Below are positions 3,528 through 29,380 of a DNA stretch of 64,000 nucleotides, piece after piece. The DNA lies in assembly GCF_902833905.1 (NCBI RefSeq), contig NZ_CADFGP010000001.1, positions 62,001 to 126,000 on the forward strand, given 5' to 3'. The notes under the pieces are model-generated. The model searched no databases, had not been told where the DNA came from, and saw only the letters and a list, made by a program, of their open reading frames with translations. Made by a program: the position numbers and the translations under genes. The DNA is from Paraburkholderia tuberum STM678 (GTDB lineage: Bacteria > Pseudomonadota > Gammaproteobacteria > Burkholderiales > Burkholderiaceae). Within the stretch, counting starts at the first letter, position 1. Each line of letters opens with the position of its first letter.

Positions 3528-3543
3528 CTGTTATCGATAACAG
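3528..3543. promoter_or_regulatory. Second-type operator palindrome upstream of the porin
   Basis: CTGTTATCGATAACAG is a perfect 16-bp palindrome. It resembles LacI-family operators of the GntR/XylR type with a TTAYCGRTAA core. A related sequence, GTTACCGGTAAC, lies in the xylanase promoter at 4786-4797. The cognate regulator is not obvious in this window. Confidence 0.65.
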
Positions 3544-24746: not shown

Positions 24747-26159
24747 TCACGCCGCCGCGCGCGCCGCATTCATCCGGCCGAACACGAACTGCCCCAGATA
24801 CCAGACCAGCTCGGTATTCGCGAAAATCGCATCTTCGGTGACCGTCGACGGTTCGAGCTTCATCCGACGCAGCATCAGCTTGCCTTCGCGCGACGTCGTC
24901 CACGCATGCATGAGTTCCTTGCGCGTCTTCGCATCGGCGGCGTTGAAATGGTCGCGGCCCTTGCGCGAATCCTCGTTCATGCGCGCGCGCACTTCTTCTT
25001 CGCGCGTCGCGATGCTGTGCGCCACGGTCTTTCTCGTTTCGGTCTTGACCGCCTGTTCCTGCGTTTCGTCGGCGAGCAGTTTGGCCTGTACGTCGACCAT
25101 CGTGCGCTCGGCGTCGGAGATCTTCCAGTTGTCGCGTAGCGCGCGCATCAGGTAGCCCGCGGGGCTCTTCTTGACCTGGCCGCGCTTGACCCTGAAGCGC
25201 GTGTATTCGACGGCCTGCTGGATACGTTCGTCGGTCCAGAGTTCGCGGTTCTCCGAAATCTCGCTGAACTGCTTGGTCGAGAGCCCGAATTCGTCGGTGA
25301 GAATCTTGTACAGATGGCTCGCGTCGGCGAGGCTCGCGAGTACCGCGTCGGCTGTGTCCTTGCGCTTGAGCAGGAAGCGGATGCGGTCGATTTTCTTCGA
25401 CGTCGTGGATGCAGTCCGCGTCTCATAGGACATCTCGACGTCCGACACTTCGTTGATCTCGCGCACCGCCGGCTCGAGCCAATCGCGCTTGAAGTATTTG
25501 AAGATGGCGGCATTCGCGCCCATTTTGCCGGGCCAGTTGCGCATTTCCTCGAGCTGGATCCAGTCGGTGCGTCCCGCGGGCACGTTGGGCAAAACTTTGT
25601 CGTAGATCGCGCGCGCGAGACTGCGCGTGAACGCGGTGGAAATGCGCAAGCTCAGCCAATGCGATTTCTGCGGATCGCGGATATGCGGCACGAGCCGCGG
25701 ATGGACGTCGAAACGCATACGTCCGCGATGAAAGCCGACCATGCCGATCAACTGAACCTGCACCCACAGATCGTTTTCGTTGGGATCGCGGTCCGCGGGC
25801 GTATTCGTCACGCGAACTTTCGCGTTCTGAGCTTCGTCGGCGATCGTGCGCAAGTGCTTCAGGTTGCGGCTGTCGTAACGCATCAGCCACTTGAAGTAGT
25901 TGAGTTCGACGTCGTACTGATCGCGCTGCTCGGGCTCCTGCGCGACGATGAAGTACGCGGCATCGAGAAAGCGCCGCGCCGGCAGCCCCATATTGACGAT
26001 TTCGGTGAAGAAATCGTTGCGCTGATAACCGATCTCGCGATTGGCCTCGTTGATGCGCAATCCCTGATCGAACATGTCTTCGAACAGCGCGAGCGCCATC
26101 TGGCGTGACGTCGCTTTCGACCTGCCCTCTTCCGGATTGTCCGCGGCCATGTTCTTCAT
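24747..26159 (-). CDS. Replication initiator protein of a secondary replicon
   Basis: 470 residues from the ATG at 26159. Upstream ATGs at 26189 and 26228 are in frame, but they lie inside or before a consensus promoter (TTGACA-N17-TACAGT) and so cannot be on its transcript. The protein is charged and helical with a winged-helix (Rep_3/RepB-like) layout: LNYFKWLMRYDSRNLKHLRTIADEA, ISTAFTRSLARAIYDKVLP, WIQLEEMRNW and FKRDWLEPAVREINE. It has the position, length and neighbours of the initiators of Burkholderia secondary chromosomes, next to iterons and parAB. It should bind the iterons, open the origin and repress itself. Confidence 0.85.
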   Translation of the reverse strand: MKNMAADNPEEGRSKATSRQMALALFEDMFDQGLRINEANREIGYQRNDFFTEIVNMGLPARRFLDAAYFIVAQEPEQRDQYDVELNYFKWLMRYDSRNLKHLRTIADEAQNAKVRVTNTPADRDPNENDLWVQVQLIGMVGFHRGRMRFDVHPRLVPHIRDPQKSHWLSLRISTAFTRSLARAIYDKVLPNVPAGRTDWIQLEEMRNWPGKMGANAAIFKYFKRDWLEPAVREINEVSDVEMSYETRTASTTSKKIDRIRFLLKRKDTADAVLASLADASHLYKILTDEFGLSTKQFSEISENRELWTDERIQQAVEYTRFRVKRGQVKKSPAGYLMRALRDNWKISDAERTMVDVQAKLLADETQEQAVKTETRKTVAHSIATREEEVRARMNEDSRKGRDHFNAADAKTRKELMHAWTTSREGKLMLRRMKLEPSTVTEDAIFANTELVWYLGQFVFGRMNAARAAA

Positions 26160-26178
26160 CCACTTTTTCGCTCCCGGG

Positions 26179-26207
26179 ACTGTAAGCATGCGGTGGTGAG
26201 CTGTCAA
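26179..26207 (-). promoter_or_regulatory. Sigma-70 promoter of the rep gene, abutting an iteron
   Basis: Read on the minus strand: -35 TTGACA (26207-26202), a 17-bp spacer and -10 TACAGT (26184-26179). The first iteron (26207-26223) touches the -35 box, so Rep bound there would block RNA polymerase. Transcription would start near 26172. Confidence 0.75.
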
Positions 26208-26519
26208 CACACAGAACCTCACCATCAAACGACCGCAACGGAGGCCGTTTCGGCGTCCCTTCCGCGTTTCGGCACACAGAACCTCACCATGTTCACAAAG
26301 AACCTCACCTTGCGGGCGGGCGTTCGCGCGGCAAGGCCTTATGCGACGGCCCTTTCAACCTCGTTCCCAGTAGCTGCACAACCCACCTCACCTTTGTGAT
26401 TTCACGCAGTGGCAAACACATCGAACCGCACCTTGGTGGGGAATCGGTCTCACCTTGCTGCACAACCAACCGCACCTCTGAGCACAGCGAACCTCACCTT
26501 CGACACAACGCACCTCACC
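26207..26519 (+). repeat. Left iteron array, eight direct copies
   Basis: Copies start at 26207, 26272, 26293, 26376, 26416, 26460, 26482 and 26503, each 17 bp. The right half AACCTCACC is nearly constant; two copies have CCGCACC and two have CACCTCACC. The start-to-start distances 65, 21, 83, 40, 44, 22 and 21 are mostly close to multiples of a helical turn. Confidence 0.88.
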
Positions 26520-26640
26520 TTTTGGAACTTAAGTGCTTGAATGGATTGAATAGTGTTTGGTTGCGTTGGTTTGTGGGTTTGTTCTCGGGTTTAAAAAAAA
26601 CCTACCAACCCGGCACACACAAATAAATGCGGCTGAAGAT
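26520..26640. other. AT-richer strip between the iteron arrays (candidate DNA unwinding element)
   Basis: Strand-asymmetric, T/G-rich DNA with runs such as GTTTAAAAAAAACC, much less GC-rich than its surroundings. It lies directly beside the last direct iteron. Confidence 0.5.
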
Positions 26641-26655
26641 TGCGCGATGCAGCAT

Positions 26656-27021
26656 GGTGAGGTTGATTGTGCGAAACGTTGAGCGGGTTCGGAAGAGCTG
26701 TTGCCAAGGTGAGGTTGGTTGTGCTGCTACGGTGATTGGCAAAGCTTGGTGATGAGCTGAACCTCTGGCTGACGGCCTGGCCCCGGTGTATCGCCGCTTC
26801 TGTGGGTGAGGTTGATTGTGCATTTGGGTTCTATGCGCGGGGAGCACTCGCAGGGAGGTGGCGAAAATCTAACAATGGTGAGGTCGGTTGTGCAGAAGAT
26901 CGCCGGACCGGTCTTTCAGGAAATGAGAAAGTGCACAAATGACCTCACCCAGTGCCTAAGTCTCGAGCAGGAGTGCCGACTCCGCTACCCAGATTGCGAA
27001 GAAAGGTGAGGTCATTTGTGC
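26656..27021 (-). repeat. Right iteron array, mostly inverted
   Basis: GGTGAGGTTGATTGTGC-type copies at 26656, 26708, 26805, 26877 and 27005 face the left array; a copy at 26933 is in plus orientation. Opposed iteron sets often serve in origin handcuffing and copy control. Confidence 0.85.
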
Positions 27022-27159
27022 CTTTGAGGACGCAGTGTTTCGAGGCTCGTTTAGTTTCCACGGCGATTCCGCGACCGAAAACGGTCTGGAAATACAGAAA
27101 TTTGCAGAAAATCCGCATAAAAACAGTAATTTAAAAAGCTATTTTCAAGTATTTCCTGT

Positions 27160-27199
27160 ATTCTGAGGTTTCTGGAATTTTATGGAAAAACCTCAGAAT
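27160..27199. promoter_or_regulatory. Inverted repeat over the parA start (probable ParA operator)
   Basis: ATTCTGAGGTTT (27160-27171) and AAACCTCAGAAT (27188-27199) are perfect 12-bp arms with a 16-bp spacer. The right arm includes the first two bases of the parA start codon. ParA proteins with an N-terminal helix-turn-helix repress their own operon at such dyads. Confidence 0.65.
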
Positions 27200-28409
27200 G
27201 GTCAGAACGAGCCAACTTCCTGCCGTAGACCGAACCGTTCACTTTGAGCAGATCAGTGAGTTCGCAGAAAAAGTCACCATTTTCACTAATGAGCTGCGTG
27301 ACACGATTCTGGCTCCGCGTCCTCGAAAAACGGCTCCCGTTTTCAAGACCGGCGAGATTGCCGAGATGTGCAACGTCTCACACTCGCAGGTTCAGTATCT
27401 CGCGACAAAAGGCGACGGAGAACTGCCTTCGGGCACGGCGGCAGGCACGGGCCGTACCCGGACCTTCACGCTGGAGGAGGCGCGGATCTGGGTACAAAAG
27501 ATTTCCGACATCTACCAGACTCCACTGGTCACGCGCCTGAAGGAGCCAGACGGGAAGATCATTATCACCGCGCAGCTCAAAGGTGGCTCCGCCAAGACGA
27601 CGACGACGATGTGCCTCGCCCAGGGGCTGTCGCTGCGGGGACGCAAAGTGTTGGTGGTTGATCTCGACCCGCAGGCGTCGCTTTCGGAACTGTGTGGACT
27701 GTACGCGGAAAAAGACGTGACGCCTGAAGACACAGTATTGCCGTACGTCTACGACCAGGACATCGAAGGTGGCCTCGAGGGGCGGGTCCAGTCGACGTAC
27801 TGGGATGGCATCGACGTGATTCCTGCGCACACGGAACTGATTGGAGCAGAGTTCCATCTGCCGGCGATGCAAAAGATGCGACCGGGTTTTCGCTTCTGGA
27901 CCGTGCTTCGTCAAGGGCTCGAGCCGCTGCGCAAGAAGTACGACTACATTCTCATGGATACGTCGCCGTCGCTGTCGTACCTCAATCTGAACGCGCTGAT
28001 GGCCGCGGATGCCATGGTGATGCCGATGGTGCCAGAAAACCTGGACTTCATCAGCTCGCTGTCGTTCTGGCGACTTTTCTCGGACGTGTCCAAAAGCTTT
28101 ATCAAATTCGAGACGGACAAGAAGTACGACTTCGTGTCGCTGGTGTTGTCGCGGGTCGATTATGGGCGGAACTCATCGGCGCCGATCGTGCGCGCGTGGG
28201 CGCAAAGCGCGTACGAAAACTGGCTGCATTCGATCGAGGTACCGGCGAGCTCGGTGATGAGCACCGGGGCGTTGGCGTTCTCGACCGTCTTCGACATCAG
28301 CAGCAATCACAGCGCGGCCAAGTCGTTGCAACGCGTGCGGCAACCTCTCGTCGACTACTGTCGCTGGATCGACGAGATCTATTCGGAAAAATGGAGGAAC
28401 GCGCAATGA
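27198..28409 (+). CDS. parA: ParA-type partition ATPase (type Ia, with N-terminal HTH)
   Basis: 403 residues. Residues about 50-110 form a MerR-like helix-turn-helix (TGEIAEMCNVSHSQVQYLATKG... RTFTLEEARIWV), as in P1 ParA and SopA. The ATPase core has the deviant Walker A LKGGSAKTTTT, the A' motif VLVVDLDPQASLS and Walker B YILMDTSPSLSYLNLNAL. Type Ia ParA proteins move ParB-bound DNA along the nucleoid and repress parAB. The ATG at 27198 lies inside the operator dyad and lacks a clear ribosome-binding site. It overlaps parB by 4 bp. Confidence 0.93.
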   Translation: MVRTSQLPAVDRTVHFEQISEFAEKVTIFTNELRDTILAPRPRKTAPVFKTGEIAEMCNVSHSQVQYLATKGDGELPSGTAAGTGRTRTFTLEEARIWVQKISDIYQTPLVTRLKEPDGKIIITAQLKGGSAKTTTTMCLAQGLSLRGRKVLVVDLDPQASLSELCGLYAEKDVTPEDTVLPYVYDQDIEGGLEGRVQSTYWDGIDVIPAHTELIGAEFHLPAMQKMRPGFRFWTVLRQGLEPLRKKYDYILMDTSPSLSYLNLNALMAADAMVMPMVPENLDFISSLSFWRLFSDVSKSFIKFETDKKYDFVSLVLSRVDYGRNSSAPIVRAWAQSAYENWLHSIEVPASSVMSTGALAFSTVFDISSNHSAAKSLQRVRQPLVDYCRWIDEIYSEKWRNAQ

Positions 28410-29380
28410 GCAATATGCGAGAACAGTTGCTGGCCAAGACGTCGGGCATTCGCAAAACTTCGTCGATCAACGAGGACGAGGTGAAGCGCAGCAACCGCAC
28501 GCAAACGGCGCCCGGCCTTGCCGGCGCGCTGGCCGTTGCGCAACTTCGCGTGCAGGAACTGGAATCGACTGGCGTCGCATCGCAACTGGCGGTTGCAGGC
28601 ATCTTGCCGAACCCTTGGCAGCCGCGTCGCGTGTTCAACGAAGCAAAGTTAGCCGAGCTCGCGGAGTCGATCCGCGAAGTTGGACTGATGCAGCCGATCG
28701 TGGTCCGTCGTGTCGCGGACGACTATCAGATCGTCGCCGGGGAACGACGCTGGCGTGCGCACAAAATGTTGGGGCTGGACACGATCAAGGCCGTGGTTGC
28801 GGATTGCTCCGACTCGGATATGGCCGTGCTCGCAATGGTCGAAAACATTAGCCGCGACGACCTTGCTGACTATGAAATAGGCGTGGCGATTCGTCGATCG
28901 GAAACAGAGTTCCCGAATCGCAAGCGACTGGCGGAAGCGATGGGATTGTCGCGGGCAGGTCTGTATCAGTTCTTGTCGTTCGACAATCTGCCGGACTTCA
29001 TCAAGAAAGATCTCGATATTCAACCGCGACTATTGGGCGGGACTGCGGCGCAAGCAATTGCAGCGGCTATCAAAAAGCATGGCGAGGATGGCGTTAAAGC
29101 CGCTCGCGAAATTTGGCCTCTGTTGGTGAGAGGCGAAATGGATCAGGGCAAGGTCGCGGCGGGAATCACCGCCCTGGCGACCCGGCAGACGACGTCGGGT
29201 GGTACCAGCGGACGCAGCATCGAGAAATTTTTCGCGGGACGAGAGCACGCTGGGAGCATCACCAAGGATGTGAGTAACTTCACGATCAAGATCAAGACCG
29301 GAGTGATCACCGAGGCGCAAGAAGTTCAGATACGACAGTTGATGGGACAGATGTTCCAATCGCAGCCGAAGACGAGCTAA
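28406..29380 (+). CDS. parB: ParB-type partition protein
   Basis: 324 residues from the ATG overlapping the parA stop; an AGGA sequence lies upstream. The N-terminal region is followed by the ParB CTPase domain (LPNPWQPRRVFNEAKLAELAESIREVGLMQPIVVRR, IVAGERRWRAHKMLG, VENISRDDLADYEI), then the DNA-binding HTH (RKRLAEAMGLSRAGLYQFLSFDNLP) and a C-terminal dimer region. It binds a centromere site parS and loads onto DNA. Two palindromes 82-150 bp downstream are candidates for that site. Confidence 0.94.
   Translation: MSNMREQLLAKTSGIRKTSSINEDEVKRSNRTQTAPGLAGALAVAQLRVQELESTGVASQLAVAGILPNPWQPRRVFNEAKLAELAESIREVGLMQPIVVRRVADDYQIVAGERRWRAHKMLGLDTIKAVVADCSDSDMAVLAMVENISRDDLADYEIGVAIRRSETEFPNRKRLAEAMGLSRAGLYQFLSFDNLPDFIKKDLDIQPRLLGGTAAQAIAAAIKKHGEDGVKAAREIWPLLVRGEMDQGKVAAGITALATRQTTSGGTSGRSIEKFFAGREHAGSITKDVSNFTIKIKTGVITEAQEVQIRQLMGQMFQSQPKTS

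Follow-up and report, generated by a model that had tools for sequence, protein, structure and literature searches.

The window analysed here, a 64,000-nucleotide stretch of Paraburkholderia tuberum STM678 DNA (contig C1, positions 62001-126000), carries a rep gene and a parA-parB pair on opposite strands, with repeated sites between them. The locus raises the question of what kind of origin this is, to which replicon it belongs and how two facing arrays of repeats might share the work of starting and limiting replication. The reading favoured here, to which a probability of roughly 0.78 is given, is that of a third, megaplasmid-type origin in which Rep would initiate at the rep-side repeats, melt the strip next to them, be titrated or handcuffed at the parA-side repeats and repress its own gene.

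The replicon and its initiator

An earlier note, made from the sequence of this DNA, had taken the locus for a secondary-replicon origin, and this is supported. With respect to chromid status, rep and parAB are present, orthologues of Rep are found on chromosome 3 of P. xenovorans LB400 (L050, 92% identical) and on the 974-kb plasmid pl1 of P. sprentiae (98% identical), and the contig (352 kb of an 8.79-Mb assembly in 216 contigs) is not closed. In pl1, rep is followed by genes for GntP-permease, patatin-family, GFA-family and response-regulator proteins, the counterparts of which, recognised by eye, occur in the same order among the open reading frames of the window; the identity between P. 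sprentiae and the window is 98% for Rep and 73% for the 1-kb origin DNA. Chromosome 2 of the genome is probably represented by contig C2, since its iterons (AGGTGAGGNTTTTCGGG) match both the c2 iteron of B. cenocepacia given in the available part of PMC4948915 and those carried by LB400 chromosome 2. The C2 Rep is 25% identical to that of the window over 135 residues, and contigs C47 and C43 each carry a further Rep relative. Because the orthologues lie on LB400 chromosome 3 and pl1, and chromosome 2 is taken to be C2, the origin likely belongs to a third, megaplasmid-type replicon.

Two side observations concern the other contigs. On C2, in the 70-110 kb region (L210, L211), c2-type iterons form the origin (104084-105449) and a second group (72290-72765); a second c2 iteron cluster is mentioned for B. 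cenocepacia in the part of Du et al. 2016 (PMC4948915) that was available. Upstream of rep on C47 (L163) lies a clade C origin in which a long inverted repeat, GGATTGCGCACAAAAAC...GTTTTTGTGCGCAATCC, contains two iterons.

A switch in GC skew had been set beforehand as a test of the locus, and one was found nearby. Over the 340 of 352 kb read on C1, the cumulative skew is lowest in the 5-kb bin that ends at 85000, next to the origin (88208-89020 in contig coordinates); the skew left of the minimum is noisy (11 of 17 bins negative), while to the right 42 of 51 bins are positive. On LB400 chromosome 3, sampled in 40 pieces of 20 kb each (800 of 1472 kb), the skew is positive from 0 to ∼695 kb and then negative save for weak positives at 1350 and 1410 kb. 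The origin there, at ∼1443 of 1472 kb, lies roughly opposite the second skew switch, and just beyond it, at 1447-1467 kb, the skew is still weakly negative; because of such weak stretches nearby, the skew places this origin only within ∼30 kb, or some tens of kb.

The comparison comprised 75 loci, namely 47 orthologues (at least 74% identical in Rep), L080 (58%), 26 members of clade B (52-54%) and L110 (37%); the 47 orthologues and the window are referred to below as the 48 origins. The true Rep start had been put at 26159, which was not borne out by the alignment. At the place of ATG 26150, every one of the 47 orthologues has methionine, whereas the position corresponding to 26159 is an in-frame stop in LB400, which excludes that start there; judged by this comparison, the conserved rep start is ATG 26150.

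In Pfam, Rep3_C scores above its cut-off and Rep3_N just under its own (21.3 vs 22.4). A sequence search of solved structures with Rep returned no RepE match and one weak, apparently unrelated match. The top fold matches of the Rep model are RepE complexes, the dimer-operator complex ranking first in Foldseek, with a TM-score to RepE of 0.39 (target length) and an rmsd of 12.6 (VIA rmsd 7.6) for a model of modest quality (pLDDT 70, pTM 0.36). On the basis of this model, a double winged-helix fold of the RepE/pi type is predicted for Rep.

Iterons, promoter and predicted operator

The iteron is the 16-mer GGTG[A/C]GGTNNNNTGTG, or 17 bp if the next base, mostly C or T, is counted, and 14 copies lie between rep (minus strand) and parA-parB (plus strand) at 26208-27020 (Table 1). 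All 14 follow the pattern GGTG[A/C]GGT-N4-TGTG. The eight on the rep side (26208-26519) are all on the minus strand and point toward rep; the six on the parA side (26656-27020) have the strand order +,+,+,+,-,+, five of them being inverted relative to the rep-side eight, and iterons 13 and 14 make up a 17-nt perfect inverted pair. Between 26160 and 27200, 14 matches to GGTGAGGTNNNNTGTG (at most one mismatch) were counted, against a mean of 0.006 and a maximum of 1 in 500 dinucleotide shuffles, and the fourteen iterons in two opposed arrays described earlier are thus confirmed. A genome-wide scan for the iteron, which the earlier note had proposed, found 10 perfect GGTGAGGTYNNNTGTG matches in the 8.79-Mb assembly, every one inside the origin; the 16 one-mismatch places divide into 4 in the origin and 12 elsewhere in the assembly, none of the 12 with a perfect core. 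Rep presumably binds the 14 iterons.

Table 1. Features of the origin region, in window coordinates. "Pattern match" refers to GGTG[A/C]GGT-N4-TGTG.
Feature	Position	Strand	Remarks
rep, Rep_3-type initiator	24747..26150	-	467 aa from ATG 26150 (470 aa from 26159)
rep promoter	26179..26207	-	-35 TTGACA 26207-26202, -10 TACAGT 26184-26179, spacer 17; abuts iteron 1
Predicted Rep operator around -35	26195..26223	-	GGTGAG 26223-26218 and mirrored CTCACC 26200-26195, 17 bp between
Iteron 1, promoter-proximal	26208..26223	-	perfect core in 47/48 origins
Iteron 2	26273..26288	-	pattern match
Iteron 3	26294..26309	-	pattern match
Iteron 4	26377..26392	-	pattern match
Iteron 5, weak slot	26417..26432	-	here GGTGCGGT; perfect core in 16/48 origins
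Half-iteron GGTGAGAC	26447..26454	-	lies between iterons 5 and 6, in register; retained by close relatives
Iteron 6, weak slot	26461..26476	-	here GGTGCGGT; perfect core in 6/48 origins
Iteron 7	26483..26498	-	pattern match
Iteron 8	26504..26519	-	pattern match
AT-richer strip between arrays, candidate DNA-unwinding element	26520..26655		least stable 60-mer from 26545, 63% A+T
Iteron 9, parA-side	26656..26671	+	pattern match
Iteron 10, parA-side	26708..26723	+	pattern match
Iteron 11, parA-side	26805..26820	+	pattern match
Iteron 12, parA-side	26877..26892	+	pattern match
Iteron 13, sole parA-side copy toward rep	26934..26949	-	pattern match
Iteron 14, parA-side	27005..27020	+	pattern match
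Most AT-rich stretch, by parA	27090..27183		likely parA promoter region; rival unwinding-element candidate
Inverted repeat TTCTGAGGTTT...AAACCTCAGAA, likely parA operator	27161..27198		ends on first base of parA ATG
parA	27198..28409	+	403 aa, N-terminal extension before ATPase domain; Pfam AAA_31 118 bits, residues 120-284
parB	28406..29380	+	324 aa; Pfam ParB_N 106.6 bits

The TTGACA-N17-TACAGT promoter is found in the window sequence as previously reported, directly abutting iteron 1, and the iteron-TTGA junction is free of any gap in all 47 orthologues, with TTGAG in place of TTGAC in five. In addition, a mirrored CTCACC arm follows the -35 element in the 47 orthologues and the window (48/48), where GGTGAG...CTCACC forms an operator-like inverted repeat around -35; a candidate inverted-repeat operator sharing iteron sequence, as looked for in an iteron replicon, is accordingly seen in each of these sequences. 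Autorepression had been deduced from the contact between iteron and promoter and is kept as the likely logic. It rests on more than the abutting iteron, because the mirrored half-iteron (26195-26200) completes the inverted repeat in 48/48 origins; iteron 1 and this half-iteron together likely let Rep repress its own promoter and, by analogy with RepE, a Rep dimer may hold the predicted operator.

The mirrored arm also tracks iterons that diverge, as GGTGAGA/TCTCACC in L080, AGGTGTAAT/ATTACACCT in L228 and AAAGTGAG/CTCACTTT in L226. Among the 11 other plasmid Reps with the helix motif KYFKRD (see below), the exact CTCACC arm accompanies seven (L214, read by eye and with no clear TTGAC, L216, L217, L220, L222, L223 and L225) and an inexact one four (L218, L219, L221 and L224). 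In clade B, the iteron is fused to TTGAC in 25 of 26 loci, but none of the 26 has the mirrored arm, and by eye no arm was seen in the three clade C promoters. The operator architecture is hence not uniform, given that clades B and C are without the arm and that it is inexact in 4/11 KYFKRD plasmids.

At the other end of the region, the inverted repeat at the parA start has other arms in relatives, e.g. TTCTGCGCTTC in L227. No near-palindrome core of the window was seen more than twice, and no parS was assigned. The only perfect 16-nt palindrome of the window, CTGTTATCGATAACAG at 3528-3543, occurs once in the 340 kb read on C1.

A proposed division of labour between the two arrays

The motif and the two-array layout are kept in all 47 orthologues, and the 48 origins contain 609 sites with at most one mismatch. 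The size and symmetry of the arrays, thought unusual in the earlier note, are instead common to the orthologue clade. Each origin has 6-8 rep-side sites, which all point toward rep (356/356) and are spaced near multiples of 10.5 bp (R 0.60), and 2-10 parA-side sites, which are mostly inverted (195/253) and have unphased spacings (R 0.10). Among 18 close relatives, iteron columns are 0.94 identical vs 0.53 for other columns.

The mean score of the parA-side sites exceeds that of the rep-side sites in 48/48 origins, which are not 48 independent events because relatives share ancestry, and likewise in 25/25 of the clade B loci compared (26 less the truncated locus L102); the scores derive from leave-one-out, class-balanced matrices, and a matrix score is not an affinity. 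Perfect cores make up 243 of 253 parA-side sites vs 267 of 356 on the rep side, where the deviations cluster in the fixed slots of iterons 5 and 6 (Table 1). In the half-iteron between these two, each base of AAGGTGAG is kept in at least 88% of the 18 close relatives; in the wider set, its place holds a site within 3 mismatches in 14/48 origins.

In the mechanism proposed here, Rep monomers would fill the eight phased rep-side iterons, the graded sites being filled late, and the strip at 26520-26655 would melt. Excess Rep would be tied up at the near-perfect parA-side iterons, or paired with them (titration or handcuffing), and Rep dimers would repress rep via the operator made of iteron 1 and the mirrored half-iteron. 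The parA-side array would in this case be a negative control locus, and the whole is most likely an iteron origin like that of F or P1, with the control array between ori and parA.

The site of melting is the weakest step of this mechanism, since the strip is more stable than the DNA that begins at 27124, next to parA. The AT-rich strip noted earlier between the arrays is present: its 60-mer from 26545 stands at the 99.2nd percentile of the 60-mers of the window, and the gap between the arrays is more AT-rich than the rep array in 46/48 origins. It is, however, not the richest part of the region, reaching 63% A+T at most vs 73-75% in the parA-proximal stretch, in which the least stable 60-mer of 26100-27260 begins (27124). 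Melting might therefore begin at 27090-27183 instead, the parA-side array being the one for initiation and the rep-side array mainly regulating rep. This is considered unlikely. The conservation of 27120-27200 (∼95% among the 18 close relatives, 0.94-0.96 from 27120 on) speaks for it as well, but the stretch overlaps the likely parA promoter and the inverted repeat at the parA start, and this overlap would account for that conservation. Moreover, known initiation arrays have parallel phased iterons, which here sit on the rep side, and the parA side holds only two iterons in 6/48 origins.

Lying between ori and parA, near the parA promoter region, the parA-side iterons might chiefly serve Rep control of parAB transcription or a link between origin and partition. 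Yet parA carries a separate inverted repeat at its start, which is also not favoured as a Rep site because its arms are unlike the iteron in clade C (L227), and the drift in the number of parA-side iterons (2 to 10) is easier to reconcile with titration than with a promoter switch; such a role as their main one appears improbable. A single bidirectional initiation array made up of all 14 iterons, with no distinct control function, is very improbable. The two arrays do share one motif and lie opposite each other on either side of the strip, but strand order and closeness to consensus separate them consistently in both clade A and clade B, as does phasing in clade A. Initiation at the rep side with control at the parA side is accordingly retained as the preferred reading.

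Two further candidates were considered. As stated in the earlier note, no perfect TTATNCACA DnaA box is present in 26160-27200, where a single match with 1 mismatch, from 26889, overlaps iteron 12. Perfect boxes occur in 10/48 origins and none is conserved in position, no position bin having more than 9 matches over the 48 origins (1 mismatch allowed); on these grounds, DnaA dependence was dismissed. DnaA boxes are found at the origins of F, P1, RK2 and pSC101 and are not required of all iteron replicons.

The other candidate, a crtS-like remote site, was searched for in six genomes with the 17-mer (at most one mismatch). Five remote places were inspected, out of a larger number that included seven others in these genomes and 11 more in the window's own. 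Each of the five falls within an open reading frame or at the beginning of one, and three of them, in G000 C111, G002 C235 and LB400 chromosome 1, represent one conserved gene start. A sixth place, in LB400, is the iteron just downstream of rep. Since the inspected places sit in or at open reading frames, chance or coding conservation is the likelier explanation of these five.

Known systems and a possible half-site code

From sequence comparison, the origin reads as a RepE-type iteron origin with a variant arrangement, well conserved and well bounded by its relatives. It resembles the ori2-repE-incC region of F in its Rep_3 initiator with two predicted winged-helix domains, in the direct iterons upstream of rep and in the predicted inverted-repeat operator at the rep promoter. 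According to the available part of PMC13028717, in F a RepE dimer binds the rep-promoter operator, and a second set of iterons limits copy number. Unlike in F, where the second array is downstream of repE, the one found here is upstream, between ori and parA, and faces the first; F has two DnaA boxes, whereas no perfect box is present here, and the 467-aa Rep has a C-terminal part (∼270-467) beyond the RepE-like region. P1 (oriR-repA-incA) likewise combines origin iterons with a control array near parA, but incA is downstream of repA, while both arrays of the window lie on one side of rep. One perfect extra iteron occurs downstream of rep in 4/47 orthologues (L045, L049, L050 and L078), ∼1.5-1.7 kb after the rep start, i.e. 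on the side of the F and P1 control iterons.

Closer relatives include the c2 and c3 origins of B. cenocepacia, described in the available part of Du et al. 2016 (PMC4948915) as rep-parAB regions with 19-21 bp iterons. The c2 iteron given there shares the CTCACCT core with the left half of the window iteron but has a different right half, and the c2-type origin of the present genome is on contig C2. LB400 chromosome 3 (L050) has the same iterons, mirrored arm and opposed arrays as the window, from which it differs in the extra iteron downstream of rep and in having 12 upstream sites (at most one mismatch) vs 14. No description of this origin family was found in the accessible portions of the open-access literature searched.

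The helix comparison included 94 Reps, i.e. those of the window, the 75 loci, 15 plasmids (taken from the 60 matches listed, of 221 in all), C2, C43 and C47. A six-residue motif, chosen after the alignment was seen, lies in the predicted WH2 helix (model residues 220-238); in L099, where the regular expression did not catch it, the motif was read separately. KYFKRD accompanies the left half GGTGAG in 61 Reps (window, 47 orthologues, L080, 11 plasmids and C2), KHFR[PQ]K accompanies GGTAACG in 27 (26 of clade B and L215), and KEFKK[RH] accompanies GGGRCGG in 3. Motif and left half thus agree in 91/91 Reps of the three multi-member classes; KYIKRD (GTGAG), KHFSAE (GGTCATGG) and KQFKRL (AGGTGTAA) are single cases. 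Midpoint rooting of the drawn tree puts clades B and C within the KYFKRD Reps. The chromosome-2 Rep is far more distant, and its place is unsure owing to long branches; it too combines KYFKRD with GGTGAG, the iterons of the co-resident chromosome 2 and of the window having their left half in common.

The pairing of KYFKRD with GGTGAG fits the contacts of WH2 with GAG in pi and with GTG in RepE, as given in the available part of a review (PMC4980987), and the WH2 helix of Rep may well read the GGTGAG left half. The agreement of helix, half-site and operator arm is the most interesting part of these results. A wider scheme, which would combine a modular half-site code in secondary replicons of the Burkholderiaceae, a cross-touch with chromosome 2 and a graded-affinity initiation switch, is put forward only tentatively and is rather doubtful as a whole. 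Under such a code, the WH2 motif would set the left half of the iteron, together with the mirrored arm where present, and a separate part of Rep would set the right half. Because the window replicon and chromosome 2 share both the left half and KYFKRD, each Rep could touch the half-sites of the other; if so, an operator consisting of left halves only could couple the expression of rep in both replicons. Similarly, weak core slots together with near-perfect control sites would amount to a graded-affinity initiation switch for Rep proteins. The graded sites are a testable addition, as the 2016 review (PMC4980987), in its available part, reported no evidence for strong and weak Rep sites within plasmid origins.

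Taken together, iteron, operator and array polarity provide a clear anatomical definition of a replicon family found on LB400 chromosome 3 and on large plasmids of Paraburkholderia, Caballeronia and Cupriavidus. Candidate strong and weak Rep sites are offered within one origin, and the recognition code leading from Rep sequence to iteron is testable and would help to predict whether given large replicons can share a cell.
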